DNA of 64,000 bases from assembly GCA_027037535.1 (NCBI GenBank), contig JALVZQ010000008.1:62001-126000 (forward strand), written 5' to 3'. This document shows positions 1 through 13,520 of the stretch, one piece after another (positions within the stretch are counted from its first letter, which is position 1; every line of letters begins with the position of its first letter). The stretch comes from Acidilobaceae archaeon. GTDB taxonomy: Archaea > Thermoproteota > Thermoprotei_A > Sulfolobales > Acidilobaceae. The position numbers and the translations under genes were made by a program. The notes beneath the pieces were generated by a model. It searched no databases, was not told the DNA's origin, and saw only the letters and a list, made by a program, of their open reading frames with translations.

Positions 1-957
1 GCTCCATCTATAGGACGAGTAGTATGCCGATAGACCTCTTCTCACAGATCTTTTATCTGATTTTTGTATGAACGCTGGTGGATCTACTATGACTACATCA
101 AAACCAGTAAGACTTGGATTTTCTCGGATGACGTCCCATATCGATGCATTAATTATCCTATAGGATTTTACATTGTTGAGTTCGAGGTTTTTCCTCAGCA
201 AGGCTACAGCAATCGGATCCTCCTCAATAAATGTTACGTTGGAGGCTCCTGCAAGCCATGCATGTACACCGAATGCTCCTGTATAGGCGAATACGTCCAG
301 CACTCTTTCCCTGTATCCAATATACCGGTATAGTTCGAGCCTATTCATCCGTTGATCCAGGTAGAAACCTGTTTTCTGACCCATCTCTACATTAACTATA
401 AATTTTGCTTCATTCTCCTCTATTGTTACTTGTTTAATCTTTTTTAGAAACCATCTCTTCCGGGGTTCTAGGCCGATATCTTTTCTGGAGCGTTGCGTGC
501 TCTTCTCGAAGACTCCTTCTATACCTATTATCTGGTTTAAGATCCGTGCAATTTTTTCAATGTACATATCAATGGCGCTGCTACTTGATTGTATTACGGC
601 GACTTTTTCGTCAAAAACATCTATTATAAGGCCCGATAACAGGTCGCCGTCACTATTAACGAGACGATAACTCCGTGTTTTTCTGAGCCCTGATAGCTCT
701 CTTCTCCGTAGACTTGCCTCGAGCTTCATTCTAAACACTTGTACGGGATTAGTATCTGGACACTCATGGTGATATAGTATTCTTAATGCTACAGGTCCTA
801 CAGCTTCATATATTCCGCAAGCTTTAATACCTGAGGGAGTCTTTATGTCGACTATGTCCCCATTTCTTACACCATGTGTTGCCCGCACCCATTTCCTGTA
901 TATTATCCCGGTTCCCCTCTCTAGATGGCGCTCGCCTTCGCCGATCACTGTTATCAT
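1..957 (-). CDS. RlmI-like class I SAM-dependent rRNA methyltransferase (3' end beyond window)
   Basis: The minus-strand frame is open from an ATG at 957 to the window edge (319 codons, no stop), so the gene is cut off here; the family is usually near 390-400 residues. An N-terminal PUA-like segment contains the run TGIIYRKWVRATHG. It is followed by the Rossmann methyltransferase with VLDVFAYTGAFGVHAW (SAM-binding loop), FIEEDPIA and VDPPAF, a motif typical of RlmI/YccW 23S rRNA cytosine-C5 methyltransferases. An SD GGAGG lies about 8 bases before the ATG and a TTAAATC TATA-like box lies near 986-994. The exact rRNA target in archaea is inference. Confidence 0.88.
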   Translation of the reverse strand, partial: MITVIGEGERHLERGTGIIYRKWVRATHGVRNGDIVDIKTPSGIKACGIYEAVGPVALRILYHHECPDTNPVQVFRMKLEASLRRRELSGLRKTRSYRLVNSDGDLLSGLIIDVFDEKVAVIQSSSSAIDMYIEKIARILNQIIGIEGVFEKSTQRSRKDIGLEPRKRWFLKKIKQVTIEENEAKFIVNVEMGQKTGFYLDQRMNRLELYRYIGYRERVLDVFAYTGAFGVHAWLAGASNVTFIEEDPIAVALLRKNLELNNVKSYRIINASIWDVIRENPSLTGFDVVIVDPPAFIQKSDKRSVRRGLSAYYSSYRWS

Positions 958-1046
958 TTTTTCTTCCTCCTTTCTTGGTTGCAAGATTTAACATACGAAG
1001 CTTGGAAGGTTTCACTTCGATACACGTTGACGTATTTAGTGATTAA

Positions 1047-2282
1047 TCAAAGGGCGTTCCTAATTATGTTTCCTTTAGTTATTACAGTTAGAAGCCTATC
1101 ATAACCCCATATATATGATAGTTGGCTCAGCTTCTCGTAGTCCCAGATTAATATGTCGGCATAGGCTCCCTCGCGGATTGTTCCATGGTCCGGATATAAA
1201 TCGAGGCTCCATGCAGCGTTAACGGTGGCAGCGGCTAATGCTTCTAATGGTGTTAGACCCAGAAGATATACTGCGAGATCCAAAGTGGTTTGGAGTATTG
1301 GATTCATATTATTTGGATTATAGTCTGTTGCTACTCCTAGGTATACTCCGTTTTTCCTAAGTTGTTTTACCGGTGGTTTCTTGTCTGCAAATACTGATAA
1401 CATTGACGTTGGCAGGAGAGTAGCCACGGTTCTTGTCATGGCGAGGCCTGGTATTATAGACTCGGGGAGATACTCCAAGTGATCAATGCTGTATATCTCG
1501 TATTCCAAGGCCAGCCTAGAGCAGCCTATATTCGCTAGCTCATCTGAGTGTAGTCTTGTCTTTAACCCGTTTCTTATCCCCCAGGAAATTATCTTCTTTG
1601 TTTCTTCTACTGTAAATGCTCCTTTATCACAGAACACGTCCACGAATTCGAGCTTCTTTTCCGCGGCCAGAGGCACAAGTCTCCTAGTGAAACAGTCTAC
1701 GTATTCACTGCGCTTCTCCTTATACTCTCTCGGTATAACATGTGCTAGGAGGGTACCTATAACTGTCTGCTGAGCTCGTTTCTTTAGCTCCAATATTGCG
1801 TCAATGAGTTTTGCCTCATGCTCGTAGAGGAGTCCATAGCCTGTTTTAACTTCAACTACTGTTGTTCCGTGATCTAACATTTTGTCGAGGACTCTCAGCG
1901 CATCGCCGACTAGGTCTTCTAGAGGTGCTTTTCTAGTCTCTTCGACTGTATAATATATTCCACCGCCTGCTTCGAGTATCTCCGAGTATGTTCTCCCTTC
2001 TAGCTTCATCCATAGCTCATGGCTCCTATCTCCTGCGAAAATGAGATGAGTGTGCGTGTCAATCAGGCCTGGTGTCACGATCCTGCCTTCTGCATTTATT
2101 ATAAGGGATGCCTCGTATCGATCCGCATCACTGTCTGATCCGATCCATACAATTTTACTGTCTTTTACTGCCACTGCCGCATTATGTATTATACCTGCTG
2201 AATCCTTGTCGACTCTTCGAAGAGGTCCCTCTTTGAAGGTTACTAGTTCTCCGATATTTCTTATCAAGAGATCTACTCTCAT
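1047..2282 (-). CDS. hutI: Imidazolonepropionase
   Basis: This 411-residue amidohydrolase would open the imidazolone ring of 4-imidazolone-5-propanoate to formiminoglutamate, the third step of histidine degradation. Visible metal and catalytic motifs are GLIDTHTHLIFAGDRSHE (HxH), RLHSDELANIG, SIDHLEYL and VATDYNPN near the C-terminus, all in family order. Length matches bacterial HutI (about 400-420). Its ATG overlaps the stop of the upstream gene as ATGA, so it is translationally coupled to the ureohydrolase. Together with hutU across the divergent promoter this makes a hut cluster, and the context separates it from other amidohydrolases. Confidence 0.93.
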   Translation of the reverse strand: MRVDLLIRNIGELVTFKEGPLRRVDKDSAGIIHNAAVAVKDSKIVWIGSDSDADRYEASLIINAEGRIVTPGLIDTHTHLIFAGDRSHELWMKLEGRTYSEILEAGGGIYYTVEETRKAPLEDLVGDALRVLDKMLDHGTTVVEVKTGYGLLYEHEAKLIDAILELKKRAQQTVIGTLLAHVIPREYKEKRSEYVDCFTRRLVPLAAEKKLEFVDVFCDKGAFTVEETKKIISWGIRNGLKTRLHSDELANIGCSRLALEYEIYSIDHLEYLPESIIPGLAMTRTVATLLPTSMLSVFADKKPPVKQLRKNGVYLGVATDYNPNNMNPILQTTLDLAVYLLGLTPLEALAAATVNAAWSLDLYPDHGTIREGAYADILIWDYEKLSQLSYIWGYDRLLTVITKGNIIRNAL

Positions 2283-3208
2283 ATTATTACCCCGTGTAAC
2301 ATGTATAATGCTAATTTGGATGCTAGTCTTATCGTTCTATTTCCGTTATCTTTTATTGGTACGATTTCTACAATGTCTGCTCCCTTAACATTCATATTGT
2401 TAAGGACGTAGTCTAGGATCTGTATTGTTTCCCTTGGATGAAGCCCTGGGCTCGAGGGACTGTTAACACCGGGAGCATATGTAGAGTCTAAATGATCAAT
2501 GTCGAGTGTTATATAGTGGACTTGGCAGGTTTCTTTCAGGTCTTTTAGATCCCTGTAGATTTCTTCTATTCTAGTCCACACGTCTCTTACGCCATAGAAG
2601 CTTATTCCAAGTTCCTTTGCTCTATTCGCTAAATAGGATGGGTTAGAGTATTCTCCTATACCTATAATTACAGTCTTAATACGATTCCTATGAGTCTGGT
2701 ATAATTCGTATAGCCAGCTCCCGCTTGTTACTCCACCCGATATTGATCTTAGATCGAAGTGTGCGTCTAGCATTACTAGTCCTACACAGTCGTATACCTC
2801 GAGGAGACCTTCTAGTATGGGACCCGTTATACTATGGTCTCCTCCTAGGAAGAGTGTAAACTTGTTTTCTTCGAATAATTTTCTTGACGCTTCTCTGATT
2901 ATTCTCTTAGTTTTCTCCCAGTTTCTTGGATACAGAATTATGTCCCCGTAGTCCTTGGGTTTGCATGGTAACTGTCCTTTGGAAGGACTATAGTCAGGGC
3001 TAGCATAAATATTGTCTCGAAGGAGCCTAGGTGCGTGTCTTGCACCTGGATCCCCACCAGTACTCCAATCCCACGGCACTCCTACTAATCCTATTCTATT
3101 ACACGGTTCTTTCTCGTGGATCCTCTTATCCTGAGGATCCTGAAGCACCTTATAGTAGGGTTTAACAAATAGATCCTTCGCCTCCAAACGGCTACACCAG
3201 GATAGCAT
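2279..3208 (-). CDS. hutG: Formimidoylglutamase / agmatinase-family ureohydrolase
   Basis: Arginase-fold enzyme with the binuclear manganese motifs FLGGDHSITGP, LDAHFDLR and LDIDHLDSTYAPG. Its position between hutI and hutU favours hydrolysis of N-formimino-L-glutamate to glutamate plus formamide rather than agmatine hydrolysis, but sequence alone does not exclude agmatinase. The frame opens at 3253 with a hydrophobic stretch (LLVLIAIATIML) that is unlike the family and would run into the divergent hutU promoter. I therefore prefer the internal ATG at 3208, with TTG 3187 (just at a GGAGGCG) as an alternative. The stop overlaps the hutI ATG by 4 bases. Confidence 0.86.
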   Translation of the reverse strand: MLSWCSRLEAKDLFVKPYYKVLQDPQDKRIHEKEPCNRIGLVGVPWDWSTGGDPGARHAPRLLRDNIYASPDYSPSKGQLPCKPKDYGDIILYPRNWEKTKRIIREASRKLFEENKFTLFLGGDHSITGPILEGLLEVYDCVGLVMLDAHFDLRSISGGVTSGSWLYELYQTHRNRIKTVIIGIGEYSNPSYLANRAKELGISFYGVRDVWTRIEEIYRDLKDLKETCQVHYITLDIDHLDSTYAPGVNSPSSPGLHPRETIQILDYVLNNMNVKGADIVEIVPIKDNGNRTIRLASKLALYMLHGVII

Positions 3209-3275
3209 TATTGTCGCAATAGCTATTAAGACTAATAATATATCTAGAACCACTATATACTAGCGGTGAATCCCT
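3209..3275. promoter_or_regulatory. Divergent hutG/hutU promoter region
   Basis: Only a few dozen bases separate hutU (GTG 3276) from the opposing hutG. An AT-rich run TAATAATATATC (about 3232-3244) is suitably placed as the hutU TATA box, with SD GGTGA at 3264-3268, 7 bases before the GTG. On the other strand TAGTATATAGTG (about 3250-3261) could serve hutG. The two promoters interleave, which would allow co-regulation. No operator is recognisable. Confidence 0.5.
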
Positions 3276-5003
3276 GTGTCTTCCCTTGACTCCTATAAAT
3301 CAAAGCCCATATGGAAACTAATAGAGAAAGGATACTATGATCCTACACGAAAACTAAGAGTACGACACATACGCGGAGAAGAACTCCACGTTAGTAGCGG
3401 TAGCTGGCAACTAGAAGGTCCTCTCAGAATGCTATTCCATGTTCTAGACCCAGAAGTCGCAAAGGATCCTGAAAACCTAATAGTATATGGCGGAACGGGG
3501 AGAGCTGCTCGAAGCTGGGAGGCATTCGAAGCAATTGTAAATACGCTTATGGAGATGAAAGAGGATGAGACCCTCGTAGTACAGTCGGGTAAACCAGTAG
3601 CTGTATTCAAGACACACAAGATGGCGCCAAGGGTCGTTATATCCAACGCGGTATTGGTTCCTAAATGGGCAGACTGGGAGTATTTCAGAGAGCTCGAGAA
3701 GAAAGGGCTAATAATGTATGGTCAAATGACTGCTGGATGCTGGGCCTACATCGGTACACAGGGAATACTTCAGGGGACTTATGAGACGTTAGCGTTTGCC
3801 GCTGAAAAACACTTCCCTGAAGGAAGCCTTGAGGGGAGACTAGTCCTAACTGCAGGGCTCGGAGAGATGGGGGGAGCCCAGCCCTTAGCAGTAACCATGA
3901 ATGGTGGAATAGCTATCGTAGTGGAAGTAGACAAGAGAATGATAGAGAGAAGAATACGACACGGCTATCTAGATACATGGACGGATAGCCTCGACAAGGC
4001 GCTTGACCTCGCATCCAAGTATAAGGAGAAGAGAGAACCTATAAGCATAGGCCTCCTCGGCAACGCGGCAGAGATATATGAAGAAATCCTAAAGCAAGGA
4101 ATAGTTCCAGACGTGGTCACAGATCAGACCCCAGCCCATGATCCTCTGAGCTATGTACCCGCAGGTATGAGCTTGGAGGAAGCTGAGAAGCTTCGCCAAG
4201 AGAACCCCGAGAAATATACTGAGCTCTCGATGAAGAGCATGAGGAGGCAAGTAGAGGCTATGGTCGGATTCCTAAAGAAGGGAAGCGTCGTATTCGAATA
4301 TGGAAACAACATAAGGAAAATGGCATATGAGGCAGGATTCACTGATGCGTTCCTCTTCCCGGGATTCGTACAGGCATATATCAGGCCTATGTTCGAGGAA
4401 GGACGAGGCCCATTTAGATACACTAGCCTAACCGGTAACGAGAAAGACATATACAGGCTCGACGACGAGCTAATAGCCACATTCAAAGACAATAAGAGGC
4501 TTGTGAGATGGGTCGAAAAAGCTAGGAAACACGTAAAGTTCCAAGGTCTACCGGCAAGAGTCGTCTGGCTAGGATATGGAGAGAGAGCAAGGTTCGGGAA
4601 ACTAATGAATAGCCTAGTAAGACTAGGCGAAATCGGCCCCATGTGGATAGGAAGAGATCACCTTGATGCTGGATCAGTCGCGAGCCCCTATAGGGAAACA
4701 GAAGGCATGATAGATGGTAGCGACGCTGTCGGAGACTGGCCCGTATTGAACGCGTTATTAAATGCCGCGGCTGGCGCTACATGGGTATGCTTCCATCATG
4801 GTGGTGGAACAGGTATAGGGTACAGTCTCCATGCAGGGCTAGGACTTGTACTGGATGGTAGCGAGGAGAGCGAGAAAAGGGCGGATCTAGTTCTTACGGC
4901 GGATCCTGGTATGGGAGTAGTCAGGCATGCGGATGCAGGATACAAGCATGCTAGGAAGACAGCGTGCGAGAAGGGTATATGGATGCCTATGCTGAGTTGT
5001 TAA
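3276..5003 (+). CDS. hutU: Urocanate hydratase
   Basis: At 575 residues it matches urocanases (about 555), which hydrate urocanate to imidazolonepropionate using tightly bound NAD. Family signatures are [50 protein letters not shown], the NAD-binding [40 protein letters not shown] and [20 protein letters not shown]. The bacterial ARICW signature, which carries the cysteine numbered 410 in Pseudomonas, reads ARVVW here (about residue 429), so that Cys is Val. GTG start with SD GGTGA at 3264. No histidine ammonia-lyase gene is present in the window. Confidence 0.95.
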
Positions 5004-5548: not shown

Positions 5549-5758
5549 AAATAATGTTTTTTAGCAACAAAAGTGTTTTACCTCCCTGTTTCTCTTTATC
5601 ATTATATTTTGATATATTTCAATTCACACCCATAGATTTAAGGCCTACCGTTCCTTACACGATATGGGATACGGCTAGATACAATTATTGTTTACCAAGT
5701 ACTATCAGCAGTGCCTATGTATTACTTAGCAGTAGTAGGGCCTACAGGTGTAATAGAT

Positions 5759-6235
5759 ATGTCCTGGATAATCGTAGAGATTGAATCTGGAATAAGGAAA
5801 TGCGATAACTTAGAGAGGGATCTAAAAAAGCTACCGACATGGCCACCTAAGCTAAAGATGACTATTGCTGAGGCCGTATCTAAATGTATCGTGAACTTGA
5901 TCGGAAGAGAATACGTAGAGGAGATCTACTACGTTGATCTAAGCGGAGGAGAGCCGAGATCTGATTTTCTTGGAAGAGATATTGATCTTATAGTAAAGGT
6001 TAAACCTGATCTTAAACCTGTAGAGAGGGACCTAGAGAAAATCCTAGAGAGCCGCTTTAATACTCAACTATATTATATAATTGGAGAGGTTGCATTGACT
6101 ATTTTAAAGCCTGATCTCATAGAAATACACGTTATAACTTCTTACGATTCATATTATGGACGCCTTGTTAGGAGTCCATTTACATACGCTATCCGCGTCT
6201 GGCCTCCCGATCAGAGTTATTCTCCCACACTTTGA
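5759..6235 (+). CDS. Nucleotidyltransferase-like protein (paralogue of the convergent gene)
   Basis: The frame is open from 5711, but ATG 5759 has SD AGGTG 9 bases upstream and gives MSWIIVEIES, so I use it (158 residues). The core YYVDLSGGEPRSDFLGRDID resembles a minimal Pol-beta-type nucleotidyltransferase: a Gly-Gly turn followed by a DxD strand (RDIDLIVKV). A later strand, IEIHVITSYDSYYGRL, may carry the third acidic residue. The last 47 bases overlap the convergent gene at 6189, which encodes a paralogue with the same two blocks. Substrate and role are unknown; no HEPN partner is seen. Confidence 0.65.
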   Translation: MSWIIVEIESGIRKCDNLERDLKKLPTWPPKLKMTIAEAVSKCIVNLIGREYVEEIYYVDLSGGEPRSDFLGRDIDLIVKVKPDLKPVERDLEKILESRFNTQLYYIIGEVALTILKPDLIEIHVITSYDSYYGRLVRSPFTYAIRVWPPDQSYSPTL

Positions 6236-6758
6236 TAAGCGATCTACTTCGATTTGCTACCATTTGATAATAAGGATAACAATCCGATCCTGTAACTAGG
6301 TGCACTTCTATTATATTAGGGATTCCTAGTAATTTATAGAAGTCTTCGTCGAATACCTCCTGAAGAATAAAGTACACATTCTCTTCAAGGCGTTTTTCTA
6401 TTGATTTCTCCTTAATTCTATTCTTGCAATTCTTATCTAGTACAATTATAATATCGAGGTCTTTTCCTCCATGACCGCTATAATAGCTGTGCTGGCCTCC
6501 AGTCAAATCGGCTATATATATTTCCTTTATACAATCCCTGTAGCAAGAAGTTTCTGGGTTAACTAGACAATATACTATTTGGTCAGCTATATAGCGTTTA
6601 AGATACTGCCATGTATGGCTTGTATATTTTTCATGTCGTAAAGTCTTTATTATCCTTTCTATTCCTCCCGGATAACGCTGAATAAGTTTTGGCAGTTCTC
6701 TACTGAGCCGTGTATAGACGCATCCAGCAATTTTTTCTTCGCACAACCGGTATCCCAT
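6189..6758 (-). CDS. Nucleotidyltransferase-like protein (paralogue of the convergent gene)
   Basis: 189 residues. The block IYIADLTGGQHSYYSGHGG followed by KDLDIIIVL aligns with YYVDLSGG...GRDIDLIVKV of the facing gene, and IEVHLVTGSDCYPYY with its IEIHVITSYDSYYG. Both proteins end in a short IKVW/IRVW strand. The N-terminal 70 residues are not shared obviously and hold several cysteines (CEEKIAGC). A TATA-like element about 30 bases upstream of the ATG suggests a leaderless transcript. The MNT-like fold is inferred from the GG...DxD pattern; function is unknown. Confidence 0.65.
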   Translation of the reverse strand: MGYRLCEEKIAGCVYTRLSRELPKLIQRYPGGIERIIKTLRHEKYTSHTWQYLKRYIADQIVYCLVNPETSCYRDCIKEIYIADLTGGQHSYYSGHGGKDLDIIIVLDKNCKNRIKEKSIEKRLEENVYFILQEVFDEDFYKLLGIPNIIEVHLVTGSDCYPYYQMVANRSRSLIKVWENNSDREARRG

Positions 6759-8523: not shown

Positions 8524-9441
8524 TTACTTTAGGGATTTGCAAAGTCTTCTAACGGTTTCCGTTATATTTGGATTTAGTGGTAGAGCTCTACTGTGTCTTA
8601 CATCTACGTCAACGATAAATACAGTGTCTATTTCCTCTAGGCCTTTTTCCTTTTCCTGTATTACTCCTACGTCGGGCTCGACAGGAATCGTATTCATATA
8701 GGCTAATTTCCCGTGATTGCCTACATCCTCAACTATTCCTCCTACTAGTAGTATTGGTATTCCTATTTCCTTGCTTCTAACGGCTAGGAACGTCTCGACC
8801 ATTGATTTATCCATTGTCATTATGTGGCCTAGATCCCGGGTCATCTTGAAGTATGCTGAGGGATATGGCAACATAAAACCGATCACTATGTTAACTTCTT
8901 CTTTCTGCATGAATCTAAATACTTCTGGATAGGCGAGATCTTCATCTATGAATATCCCTATCTTAGCGTCTTTGCTTGATACATAGAATATTCCTGGGTC
9001 TTTACCACGGTTTATACCGTATTTTATTTCTTCTGGCGTCAGGCTCATCTTCCTGTATTTTGCGACTATACTGCCGTACTCGTCTATTAAGACACTAGTG
9101 ATATAGAGTCTGGGCCCTGCTCTTTCAATCATAGGGCCTACAAGTATACTGACATTTAATTTTACAGCCCACTCAATAGGATTCACAAGTATACTGTTTC
9201 CGGGAAGTCTACGCCCTATTCTTTCAGCATAGTTTGACATTGCATGTTTAAGACGGTTAGGCGTATAATAATTAATCACAGGTCCTGTAAAAGGATAGGG
9301 AGGGAGAACAATCAAGTCTACCTTATAGTCGTCCACTAGGGATGCTACAAGGCTCTTAAGCTTGCGAGTATTAGCTCTTTTCGAGCCAAGCTTAATCCTG
9401 GCATGTATAACCCCGATTCTCAAAGAGGATGCTCTGCTCAT
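8524..9441 (-). CDS. Nitrilase-superfamily homologue lacking two catalytic residues
   Basis: 305 residues with the carbon-nitrogen hydrolase fold pattern throughout. The catalytic Glu motif (normally LPE) is LIVLPPYPFTGP. The Lys motif is kept (AKYRKMSLTPEEIKYG). The nucleophile elbow, normally GVxxCYDxRFPE, is IGIFIDEDLAYPE, so Asp replaces Cys. With Glu and Cys both absent, classical amidase or nitrilase chemistry is not expected; a binding or structural role is inferred. Its ATG overlaps the reverse gyrase stop (9438-9441), so the two are translationally coupled. The reason for coupling is unknown. Confidence 0.75.
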   Translation of the reverse strand: MSRASSLRIGVIHARIKLGSKRANTRKLKSLVASLVDDYKVDLIVLPPYPFTGPVINYYTPNRLKHAMSNYAERIGRRLPGNSILVNPIEWAVKLNVSILVGPMIERAGPRLYITSVLIDEYGSIVAKYRKMSLTPEEIKYGINRGKDPGIFYVSSKDAKIGIFIDEDLAYPEVFRFMQKEEVNIVIGFMLPYPSAYFKMTRDLGHIMTMDKSMVETFLAVRSKEIGIPILLVGGIVEDVGNHGKLAYMNTIPVEPDVGVIQEKEKGLEEIDTVFIVDVDVRHSRALPLNPNITETVRRLCKSLK

Positions 9442-12400
9442 GTTCTTCGACCCTCCCTACTGGACACGACTATGGTTGCCATAGAGATACATTCGTGGAA
9501 CGAGCCACGAGGCGGCTTAGACTCCTTTAGCTCGTCTGGGATCTTGCTGATAGCTGAAGCCAGTGGCCCTATCTCATTGTATACTTCTTTGAGTACTTTA
9601 ACTCTAGTTGTTTTCCCTGTTTCGATCTCATTCATTCTCTGTTCTAGCTGGCGGGTTCTTTCTTCTGAAACCAGCTGCGGTATGCTTTCTACTACTTCGA
9701 CTGCTTTATCTCCTAGTGGTTTAAAGTCGTCTTTATACTCTACTATGCTCCTTGTCAGATAGTTATACACGTGTTCACCTCTGATTGTCGATATCAGATA
9801 GTCTCCCTTTGCTCCGGGCGGCCTCGTGATATAACGTCTCTTAAGCAGGGTCTCTATTATCTTGGCATATGTGCTAGGCCTTCCGATGCCTCGCTTCTTC
9901 ATTTCCTCTATTACGTCGCCCTGAGTATATAGTGGTACTAGGGGTACCTTGTAGACCTCTATCTTCGACCAGAAAGATCCCACAGGTAGTTCCTCGGAGA
10001 GCCTAGCATAAGGCCATATGAGTAGGAAACCCATGTCATTTTCAGATTCAGCGGCTATGATAACTCTCTCGACTTCGAACCATGCGTTATATGGCGGGAA
10101 ACTTACTTTGTACTTTGCTCTCTTAACTCTAGCTTCCCTCATCTGGCTTGCCATGAATCTCCTGAATATTAGATCGTACAGTCTTAGATGTCTCTGTGTG
10201 ATCTGGCCTGGGAACTCGAGTATTCCTTCGTCTACGAGGTTTCTTAGTCTATCTGCGTCGATTGGCCTTGTGGGCCTGATTGCTTCGTGGGCTCCTCCTT
10301 CGCCCCACTGCCTCGGCCTGAATAATTCTCTATAGGATTCTCCGAAGCGCTCGCTTAGCCATTCTCTTGCTACCTGTATTCCTTTGTCACTTACCCGTGT
10401 ACTGTCTGTCCTATGGTATGTTATGAGACCCCATTCGAAGAGGTTCTGGGCGAGTCTCATCGTTTCCGGTGCACTCATCCTTAGTATTCTGCTTGCATCG
10501 AATAATAGGGTATCCGTAGTATATGGTGGAGGCGGATATAGATTATCGTCTTTCTCCTCTAATAATTCTATAGAGACTTCGTGTTCAACGAGTTTCTTTC
10601 CTTTGAGAGCTTTCTGTAGTTCTATTACTTCGCCTTTTATTTCGTCTATTCTTGTACTTAGATAGGCGCCGTCGACATGGATCCTGAGTGCTAATACTTT
10701 TTTCTTCGATTCATGTGTTCTCTGCACTATCCATCCTAGGACGGGGGTTTGTACTCGTCCGGCGCTCAGGTTATAATAAAATCTCATTGATGAGCATCTC
10801 TCTAGTTCATGCGATATGAACATTTGTTTTTTGCCGGGAGCAGCATAGAATTCTTTTAGCAGCTGACAATAGTGTTTAGGCCAGAAGTGGCACCAGAGTA
10901 GAGGCGAGAGCGAGAAGCCTATCCATCTATCCTCAATTCTTCTTACTATTTGTGCATCTATTAGGTTCTGGTCGAACCCTCTGGTGTTCTTTAACGCCTC
11001 GAGTATGGCTCTTTTAGTGACCTCGTGGAATTCAAGTCTCTCTATCCTTCTACTGTATGGTTTCAGAAGGACTGATACGTCCCATCCTATTTTCTCTCCC
11101 TCGACATCGGGATCGGTCCCTATTAATACTTTGTCTACTTCCCAAGCTATTCTGCGGAGATCACTTACTATTTGTCTTGAATCTCTTATCCTTGTACTGC
11201 CACATACAGGGCATTTCTCTACGTCTGCTGTGAATTGGTGTCCACAGTCTAGGCATCTCTTAATACTCGTATAGACAGGAATGAATTCTTTATCGTTCTT
11301 ATTTTCCTCGATGATAACACCGAATATATCATCTTTTGCAGGTTCACCTAGTATCCTATAATCATACTCGTCTGCAAACGGAGAAAGATCGTACACATGG
11401 CCGCCGCTAGCTGCTATGCTTAGAATATAGTCTCCGACTGCTACCTCGTAAACTCTCAAACCTCCAGGTAAGAGGCGAATGCTTGGTTGTCCAAAGAAAC
11501 CTGCTATGGTTCTAGCTTTGTTCGGTGATTCTACTACTAGTAAGGCGGTCTTGACTAGGTCCTTTAATTTTATTGCTCCTCTCTTCAGCTCTCTTACTTT
11601 TCTCCTATCCTCGTCTATTTCTTTCAGTACCTGGTCTAGATCGATCTCCTCTAGCTGTTGCCATTTTGCCTCGACGAACCATTGCGTACGCCTTATAAGA
11701 CCATTGAGCACTGGCTCGTAGTCAACGACTACTATGCTAAGTCCTCTTGTTATTCCCCCTGCGTAGAGCCTGCTTGTTCTACCGCTCGCTTGTATGTATG
11801 TAGGTGCATCAGCTATGAGGACGTATCTTTTGTCGTCCTCTTTTACGACGGCTACGTCTCTTCTACTCTCTAGGAACTCCCATACGTCTTCTTCCTCCAT
11901 TGCTTGTCTTAGGAAATTATAGGCCTCTGCCACGAGACGAGTGGGACTCCCTGATTCGTCGACGTCTCCACTCATTACACGTTCTGCGATCATGTGGAGA
12001 GCCGCGGGGCTGAGTCTCCGCATGAGGTCGCGGAGTCTTGCCATGTATACTCGTGCTGTGTTAGCAATATCCTCCATTGGGGCCTCTACTAATAGAGATA
12101 GTAGTCTTATCATCCTGGCAGGATGGGGATCACCTATGTCGGCGGAGAATTTATGTCTTGGAACTCCTGCAAAAATAGCGTACCTTACGACTTCAGGTAG
12201 GTCGAGGCCTCTTACTAGGACTCCATAATAGTTTGCGACGCCTACTAATACGTCTAGTTCTCCACTAGCATACTCGTCTATTATCCTTGTGGGCTTCTTG
12301 CTGTGGAACGCCTCTGCCTTAATGCCCTCGTTTCGGAGTCTCTCCGCGATTGCCTCGGCTCCCTCGATGCCTTGATCTATAGGTACGTATACGAGGCCTC

Positions 12401-13520
12401 CCTTCCCCAATCTTTTTACGAGTTCGACTACTCGCTCCACTATACCATTATCCGGATAAGTATAGGTATCATATACTCTTCTCAGCCCTAGATCGCTTCT
12501 TCCCCCGGCCTCGAAGCCGAGAAGGCTCCTGAATAACTTTACTCGTGCCCCTCTAGGTCTTCCCGTTGCGGTGCTAACTATTAGGCTTGCAACACTGTTT
12601 CTGGCATTATTTATGTACTCTTGTAACTTTGTTATTCTAGCCTCGATAAGTGCGAGTTCTTTTCTAACATTCTCTGCTTGAGCCCTACGGCGCTCTTGAA
12701 GCCTAGTAAGTCTATTGTAGAGCGAGGCCCTTCGCACCTGGAGCCTGAGCAGTTCTGCTCCTTTTTCTAGATCCTCTTCGGTGAAGCCCACGATTTTTAG
12801 GACTGTATCAACGCTCTTGGCGCTTTTTAGCACCGCGTCAACGTCGTCTACGAATACCAGTCTATACCTTGTCTTAGAGACTAGATCAACGTTCTTCCTT
12901 GCAAAAGCAGCTGTAGTAACAAGTACACCGAACTCGCCTTTTTCTAGTTTCTCTATGGCTTCTTGACGTTTCTTTCGGCCCATCTTGCTATGTATAACAA
13001 GTATCCCTGGATCGCATCCTACCCTTTCGATGACTGAGAGAGCCTTTCTTTCGACCTGCTGGACCAGAGGAGTCGTAGGGAGGATAATATAAGCTTTCTC
13101 ACCATTACACGCATAATATATACTAGCTACTATGCCAAAAGTCGTCTTTCCGACTCCCGTAGGAGCCACTATAGAAAAACTATCCTTCCTCGCTAACCTT
13201 CTCGCCCATGTGCGCTGTGCTCCCCATGGAGGACTCTCAATCGCTTTCTCGAAAAACTTTATGAGCCTCAAACTCTCCTCTTCTAGCGAGGCCAGTTCTC
13301 TATAATTGCTCAACGATCTAGCCTCTTTCAACAACTCGTTTATGGCGAGAATATCGTATTCTTCACGAGAATATCTTGATAATAACTCGTCGCTGATACA
13401 TTGAGGGCATGGGAGGCCACGTATTAGTCTACCCTCTGTATTAGCCCTGCCGCAATTGGGGCACGAATGCCGGTAAATTCCTCGTCCTTTAGAGAATCTT
13501 TGCATATGCAATGGCACCAT
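9438..13520 (-). CDS. rgy: Reverse gyrase
   Basis: 1360-residue ATP-dependent enzyme that introduces positive supercoils, the hallmark protein of hyperthermophiles. In order: N-terminal zinc finger (C20, C23, C38, C41), helicase Walker A APTGVGKTT (about 119-127), VFVDDVDAV (DEAD-equivalent, about 225), helicase motif VI ASGRTSRLYAGG (about 578), and topoisomerase IA from about 658 (VVESPNKARTIAGFFG). Then come a second zinc finger (C756, C759, C770, C773), toprim GTDPDVEGE (about 802) and active Tyr1035 in GLITYHRTDSTR. It is somewhat longer than most family members (about 1050-1250) with no intein visible. ATG 13505 is an alternative start. The downstream pseudo-nitrilase is coupled by a 4-base overlap. 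Confidence 0.97.
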   Translation of the reverse strand: MVPLHMQRFSKGRGIYRHSCPNCGRANTEGRLIRGLPCPQCISDELLSRYSREEYDILAINELLKEARSLSNYRELASLEEESLRLIKFFEKAIESPPWGAQRTWARRLARKDSFSIVAPTGVGKTTFGIVASIYYACNGEKAYIILPTTPLVQQVERKALSVIERVGCDPGILVIHSKMGRKKRQEAIEKLEKGEFGVLVTTAAFARKNVDLVSKTRYRLVFVDDVDAVLKSAKSVDTVLKIVGFTEEDLEKGAELLRLQVRRASLYNRLTRLQERRRAQAENVRKELALIEARITKLQEYINNARNSVASLIVSTATGRPRGARVKLFRSLLGFEAGGRSDLGLRRVYDTYTYPDNGIVERVVELVKRLGKGGLVYVPIDQGIEGAEAIAERLRNEGIKAEAFHSKKPTRIIDEYASGELDVLVGVANYYGVLVRGLDLPEVVRYAIFAGVPRHKFSADIGDPHPARMIRLLSLLVEAPMEDIANTARVYMARLRDLMRRLSPAALHMIAERVMSGDVDESGSPTRLVAEAYNFLRQAMEEEDVWEFLESRRDVAVVKEDDKRYVLIADAPTYIQASGRTSRLYAGGITRGLSIVVVDYEPVLNGLIRRTQWFVEAKWQQLEEIDLDQVLKEIDEDRRKVRELKRGAIKLKDLVKTALLVVESPNKARTIAGFFGQPSIRLLPGGLRVYEVAVGDYILSIAASGGHVYDLSPFADEYDYRILGEPAKDDIFGVIIEENKNDKEFIPVYTSIKRCLDCGHQFTADVEKCPVCGSTRIRDSRQIVSDLRRIAWEVDKVLIGTDPDVEGEKIGWDVSVLLKPYSRRIERLEFHEVTKRAILEALKNTRGFDQNLIDAQIVRRIEDRWIGFSLSPLLWCHFWPKHYCQLLKEFYAAPGKKQMFISHELERCSSMRFYYNLSAGRVQTPVLGWIVQRTHESKKKVLALRIHVDGAYLSTRIDEIKGEVIELQKALKGKKLVEHEVSIELLEEKDDNLYPPPPYTTDTLLFDASRILRMSAPETMRLAQNLFEWGLITYHRTDSTRVSDKGIQVAREWLSERFGESYRELFRPRQWGEGGAHEAIRPTRPIDADRLRNLVDEGILEFPGQITQRHLRLYDLIFRRFMASQMREARVKRAKYKVSFPPYNAWFEVERVIIAAESENDMGFLLIWPYARLSEELPVGSFWSKIEVYKVPLVPLYTQGDVIEEMKKRGIGRPSTYAKIIETLLKRRYITRPPGAKGDYLISTIRGEHVYNYLTRSIVEYKDDFKPLGDKAVEVVESIPQLVSEERTRQLEQRMNEIETGKTTRVKVLKEVYNEIGPLASAISKIPDELKESKPPRGSFHECISMATIVVSSREGRRT

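Follow-up and report, generated by a model that had tools for sequence, protein, structure and literature searches.

The gene directly behind reverse gyrase in the window (the whole 64,000-nucleotide stretch of contig JALVZQ010000008.1, from an Acidilobaceae archaeon) encodes what its sequence marks as a conserved, operon-linked pseudo-nitrilase, predicted to be catalytically dead and paired with the TopR1-like paralogue of reverse gyrase. Kept across an order of hot-spring archaea, this linkage points to an overlooked partner of TopR1. Reverse gyrase is the signature enzyme of hyperthermophiles and has two crenarchaeal copies whose divergence calls for an explanation; this slowly evolving protein, whose gene follows TopR1 and not TopR2 across the order, is a specific candidate for what distinguishes TopR1. 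Searches of freely available main texts returned no description of the gene or of its link to reverse gyrase, and the locus tags around topR1 (SSO0418/0419/0421, SiRe_1580 and M164_1731/1733; those of the SSO, Saci and M164 series being guesses at the neighbours) led to no paper about it. The features discussed below are as follows.

8524–9441, minus strand: pseudo-nitrilase gene (ATG start, 305 aa, CN_hydrolase match)
9438–9441, minus strand: ATGA shared by the reverse gyrase stop and the pseudo-nitrilase start (4 nt)
9438–13520, minus strand: reverse gyrase, TopR1-like paralogue, 1360 aa (TIGR01054, TopR1 clade)
9298–9300, minus strand: codon 48, Pro where the catalytic Glu is expected (from the alignment; coordinates from codon number)
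9112–9138, minus strand: GPMIERAGP motif, residues 102–110, hallmark of the orthologue group (from the alignment)
9049–9051, minus strand: codon 131, retained Lys (from the alignment)
9028–9030, minus strand: codon 138, acidic position close to the second Glu of nitrilases (E in 40/40 of the window's own family)
8944–8946, minus strand: codon 166, Asp where the nucleophilic Cys is expected (from the alignment)

Fold and superfamily

The initial annotation had proposed a nitrilase fold whose ATG overlaps the reverse gyrase stop; the overlap is the 4-nt ATGA, and the fold is borne out at three levels. The protein matches Pfam CN_hydrolase (PF00795) over residues 8–282 (E 8.6e-18; 65 bits, cut-off 23.2). 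Its AlphaFold model, calculated from an input alignment of 42 relatives, has a mean pLDDT of 94.0 and a pTM of 0.92. Structure searches with this model place N-carbamoylputrescine amidase first (5h8l; Z 29.0, rmsd 2.9, 273 aligned), with yeast Nit3 (1f89, Z 28.5) and mouse Nit2 (2w1v, Z 28.3) among the other top matches, and all of the best solved structures are nitrilase-superfamily enzymes. By its predicted fold, the protein is thus a member of this superfamily. The likeness extends over the whole fold (Z 28–29 across 254–275 residues), at 16–18% identity to the nearest solved structures, and includes the conserved Lys, GxxxE, PE and R..E elements; the protein differs in that no orthologue has the catalytic Glu or Cys, and in its own GPxxERAGP motif, His13 and Gly234. 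Orthologue open frames span ~260–335 aa in nearly all cases. The window genome encodes two further CN_hydrolases elsewhere, one of which (L049) retains both Glu and Cys when aligned.

Active site

We aligned 97 orthologues (one per genome from ten families, 40 from the window's own family and 57 from the nine others; at least two are partial) with 10 nitrilase paralogues. The window protein has Pro48, Lys131 and Asp166 at the catalytic columns, where active nitrilases from genomes of the same family read LPE, K and C, consistent with the earlier reading that Glu and Cys are missing and Lys is present. Glu is found in 0/97 orthologues, against 29/29 active relatives, and Cys in 0/97; the 15 orthologues with a nearby Cys carry it at least one position off the nucleophile column, not at the nucleophile position. 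The paralogues retain Glu and Lys in 10/10 and Cys in 9/10. That a non-enzymatic-looking homologue is conserved as such therefore holds across the group, and the intact Glu-Lys-Cys orthologues that would have pointed to local decay were not among the 97. The particular substitutions fared less evenly. LPP proved to be one form of several, residue 48 being Ala in 21, Pro in 9, Ser in 8 and Gln in 2 of the 40 own-family members, so that what is conserved is the absence of Glu (97/97); the Cys-to-Asp exchange broadens to Asp or Glu in 82/97, and the remainder come chiefly from family f2, plus a few from f3, f9 and f10. Lys has persisted in 85/97 (40/40 in the own family). Family f2 has mostly lost both Lys and the acid at the Cys column and keeps the reverse gyrase linkage; sequences of f2, f3 and f9 are very divergent, making single columns there less certain.

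When a core of 71 orthologues, obtained by setting aside the 26 most divergent, was compared with the 29 active enzymes, six residues proved to be fixed in the former and not in the latter (His13, Pro103, Ala108, Gly109, Pro110 and Gly234), together with loss of the enzyme-conserved Asn114, Gly249 and Ser251. These observations indicate a distinct conserved lineage, not an enzyme decayed in the window genome. The protein is a putative pseudoenzyme, its catalytic motif gone and its gene conserved under selection, and from its sequence it is probably catalytically dead.

Alternatively, it may have remained an enzyme whose site, rebuilt from Lys131, Asp/Glu166 and the nearby acidic residue, catalyses a different reaction. 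The frequencies of Lys and of the acid at the Cys column would fit this, as would the charged pocket residues, kept in 40/40 own-family members. However, the general base is gone in 97/97, Asn114, Gly249 and Ser251 are lost despite their conservation in the 29 enzymes, and f2 has kept the linkage having mostly dispensed with Lys and acid. We are aware of no nitrilase able to function without Cys, and consider a rebuilt site unlikely.

Separately, locus L061 (G047:C92:7700-10000) encodes at 556–1416, minus strand, a nitrilase homologue that retains Glu and Lys and has Asp in place of Cys (ILIDVDANIPE), possibly a separate pseudoenzyme lineage.

Selection

Compared with its counterpart in the nearest relative, the window's pseudo-nitrilase has a dN/dS of 0.013 (dS 1.08), and TopR1 in the same pair 0.062 (from 500 available codons). 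The corresponding values in an Aeropyrum-type pair are 0.028 for the pseudo-nitrilase, 0.066 for TopR1 and 0.073 for TopR2. Across 11 pairs (G116 and G064 used twice, and one pair being the window pair again) we compared dN, dS being saturated in several; pseudo-nitrilase dN is lower than that of TopR1 in 10/11, the exception being G070/G060. The gene is under strong purifying selection, usually stronger than that on TopR1. Absence of Glu and Cys throughout the 97 orthologues speaks against both chance and local decay. The idea that a normal nitrilase, behind reverse gyrase by chance, has decayed locally also runs against the dN/dS of 0.013 and the near-universal open frames; we reject it as exceedingly improbable.

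Linkage to reverse gyrase

The neighbouring reverse gyrase scores 1437 bits against TIGR01054 (cut-off 471.7). In the window's own family, reverse gyrase is matched in 48/48 genomes and the pseudo-nitrilase gene is present in 40/48 (24 of the 25 near-complete ones have a match); by coordinates, it lies directly behind a same-strand reverse gyrase in 32 of those 40. A further 60 loci come from elsewhere in the order and were picked around gene matches or, for some, downstream of reverse gyrase; 57 of them contain the gene, which directly follows reverse gyrase in 51 of these (nine families). The whole set gives 83/97 genomes in ten families, so the linkage does persist beyond the window genome, as had been asked of it, and random genomic placement is rejected. 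The remaining 14 comprise eight genomes that lack TopR1, five in which the gene has moved (L086, L092, L093, L109 and L133) and one at a contig end (L080). Counted by locus, 108/126 are linked (some genomes being covered twice), and the median gap in this set is −4 nt when the earliest possible start is taken.

A tree of 30 reverse gyrases from 15 genomes places 15/15 linked copies on one side of a single branch (support 100/100) and 15/15 unlinked copies on the other; a 46-sequence tree gives the same split. The second zinc finger, reported as strictly conserved in TopR2-like and often broken in TopR1-like proteins (PMC6878951), is missing from the linked copy and present in the unlinked one in the four Sulfolobaceae-type genomes. 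The window copy has this finger intact, and 35% of TopR1-like sequences are reported to keep the second Cys (PMC6878951). Upstream of the linked copy, Sulfolobaceae-type loci have CDC48 on the opposite strand. For S. islandicus REY15A, the literature gives SiRe_1581 as topR1 (PMC5535833) and SiRe_1582 as CDC48 (PMC5682000), from which the pseudo-nitrilase orthologue there is presumably SiRe_1580. The zinc-finger pattern and this synteny together identify the linked side of the tree as TopR1. As assigned from the trees, the linked partner is always TopR1-like and never TopR2 among the reverse gyrases tested (15/15).

The linked copy thus corresponds to the TopR1-like member of the crenarchaeal TopR1/TopR2 pair (PMC6878951, PMC8185306). 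The main texts of these two papers do not contain the words operon, synteny or genomic context, and so discuss no downstream partner gene in those terms. topR1 is reported to be non-essential and can be disrupted in Sulfolobus (PMC6249222), and its transcript is reported to drop at heat shock in S. acidocaldarius (PMC10653856).

Two TopR1-like frames, of 1627 aa (G008:C71:7206-12881) and 1891 aa (G010:C21:12234-18673), were matched in several pieces, which suggests that they carry inteins or other in-frame inserts.

Limits of the pair

A profile search (43-row profile, 300 genomes of the phylum) separates members of the order (E ≤ 7.4e-55, except G091 at 6.8e-16, which has only a 120-aa frame at the gene's place) from the best outside match (1.5e-38). 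All 20 outside matches that we read, from ~195 outside genomes with matches, resemble active enzymes, each with the PE and Cys motifs, and the stretch fetched around each contained no reverse gyrase. Six reverse gyrases from outside the order group with TopR1 in the tree (a seventh, L268, is partial and was left out); in their short flanks, inspected by eye and not by profile search, no pseudo-nitrilase was recognised. Ignicoccus-type genomes (f6) have kept a TopR1-side reverse gyrase, and the gene is found in 0/5 of them, and in 0/2 in the phylum search; their position within the linked clade leads us to interpret this as loss. As part of the joint explanation that we favour, at slightly less than even odds, the dead nitrilase may have become TopR1's operon partner in or before the ancestor of the order.

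A 3.5-kb contig labelled Euryarchaeota (L173) also carries the gene and is probably a mis-binned contig of the window's order.

Persistence without TopR1

In eight genomes from two sister genera (Acidilobus/Caldisphaera-type), the single reverse gyrase is TopR2 and the pseudo-nitrilase is kept; these genomes have lost TopR1 and retained its neighbour. Relative to TopR2, pseudo-nitrilase dN is 0.69 and 1.05 in TopR1-less pairs against 0.25 in the Aeropyrum-type pair, three pairs in all. One TopR1-less genome (G013; L033/L149) has a 31-nt deletion and frameshift in the gene, which could be decay or an assembly error, and its relative G014 (92% complete) gave no match to the gene. With three pairs and draft genomes, the rates hint at relaxed constraint where TopR1 is gone.

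Unlinked copies have varied surroundings. In three Pyrodictiaceae genomes (L092 and L168, from the same genome, L169 and L170) the gene lies 174–179 nt behind a same-strand HerA-type ATPase gene (Pfam DUF87, 4.1e-32, run on one of the three); in Caldisphaera-type genomes it follows a family-B polymerase-like gene; other relocated copies have unrelated neighbours. The ATPase and polymerase-like neighbours would suit a wider role in DNA maintenance.

Co-evolution with TopR1 was sought by a mirror-tree test over 15 genomes, with a negative outcome: no extra correlation with TopR1 (partial r −0.15 given TopR2) and, opposite to expectation, a weak one with TopR2 (partial r 0.42 given TopR1; 42 of 2000 permutations). 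Persistence in the eight TopR1-less genomes and the lack of rate co-variation argue against an obligate TopR1 subunit.

The same observations favour the nearest rival to an accessory role, ahead of the less likely rebuilt catalytic site: a housekeeping function of its own (for example, DNA repair or metabolic control), co-expression with topR1 then reflecting only that the cell needs both products in the same circumstances, with no contact to TopR1. Survival without TopR1, relocation in five genomes, the ATPase and polymerase-like neighbours and the absent rate co-variation all fit. Yet co-expression alone would hardly keep a TopR1-specific linkage in 83/97 genomes of ten families, and constraint seems looser where TopR1 was lost; we regard an independent role as a serious, if somewhat doubtful, alternative.

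Possible role with TopR1

Our best explanation, held at a little short of even confidence, is that the dead nitrilase-fold protein is a non-catalytic accessory of the TopR1 module, with a physical or regulatory role on TopR1 that is not obligate. For it stand the linkage (32/40 in the own family, 51/57 in nine others), the single clade of linked reverse gyrases (15/15) with CDC48 upstream as SiRe_1582 is beside SiRe_1581, the altered catalytic columns (Glu 0/97, Cys 0/97, Lys 85/97, Asp/Glu 82/97) with signature residues of their own, and the constraint on the gene (dN/dS 0.013 against 0.062; dN below that of TopR1 in 10/11 pairs), seemingly looser where TopR1 is lost. Against it stand the eight TopR2-only genomes that have the gene, the five relocated copies, Ignicoccus-type TopR1 without the gene and the mirror-tree correlations (−0.15 with TopR1, 0.42 with TopR2).

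As such an accessory, the pseudo-nitrilase would be made in step with TopR1 through translational coupling and, by analogy with its enzymatic relatives, may form an oligomer. Its charged pocket (Lys131, Asp/Glu166 and acidic 138) would be kept, not for amide hydrolysis but to bind a ligand and/or a protein surface, and the old pocket and/or the oligomer surface could tune TopR1 amount, stability or activity. The gene's survival in genomes without TopR1 suggests that the protein may also serve another partner or function.

Pseudoenzymes that act as allosteric or scaffold subunits (PMC5106787, PMC10211241) offer a parallel in their conserved fold without catalytic residues under strong constraint; the word nitrilase occurs 0 times in the consulted text of these two reviews. 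Whereas the partner of such subunits is an active enzyme sibling, that of the pseudo-nitrilase would be a topoisomerase. A more specific and quite improbable version of the accessory role makes the dead amidase a metabolite sensor, its old pocket binding a small nitrogen compound and reporting to TopR1. The ligand could be a polyamine or related cation, in keeping with the putrescine bound to the closest structural match, N-carbamoylputrescine amidase; if so, positive supercoiling would follow metabolic or thermal state in these archaea.

Other features of the window

Two convergent, overlapping ORFs on opposite strands at 5711–6758 share similar motifs, which we take to be nucleotidyltransferase-like, and are possibly a paralogous pair. 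Three adjoining ORFs at 1047–5003 presumably encode histidine-degradation enzymes, reading like imidazolonepropionase, a formiminoglutamase-like protein and urocanate hydratase.
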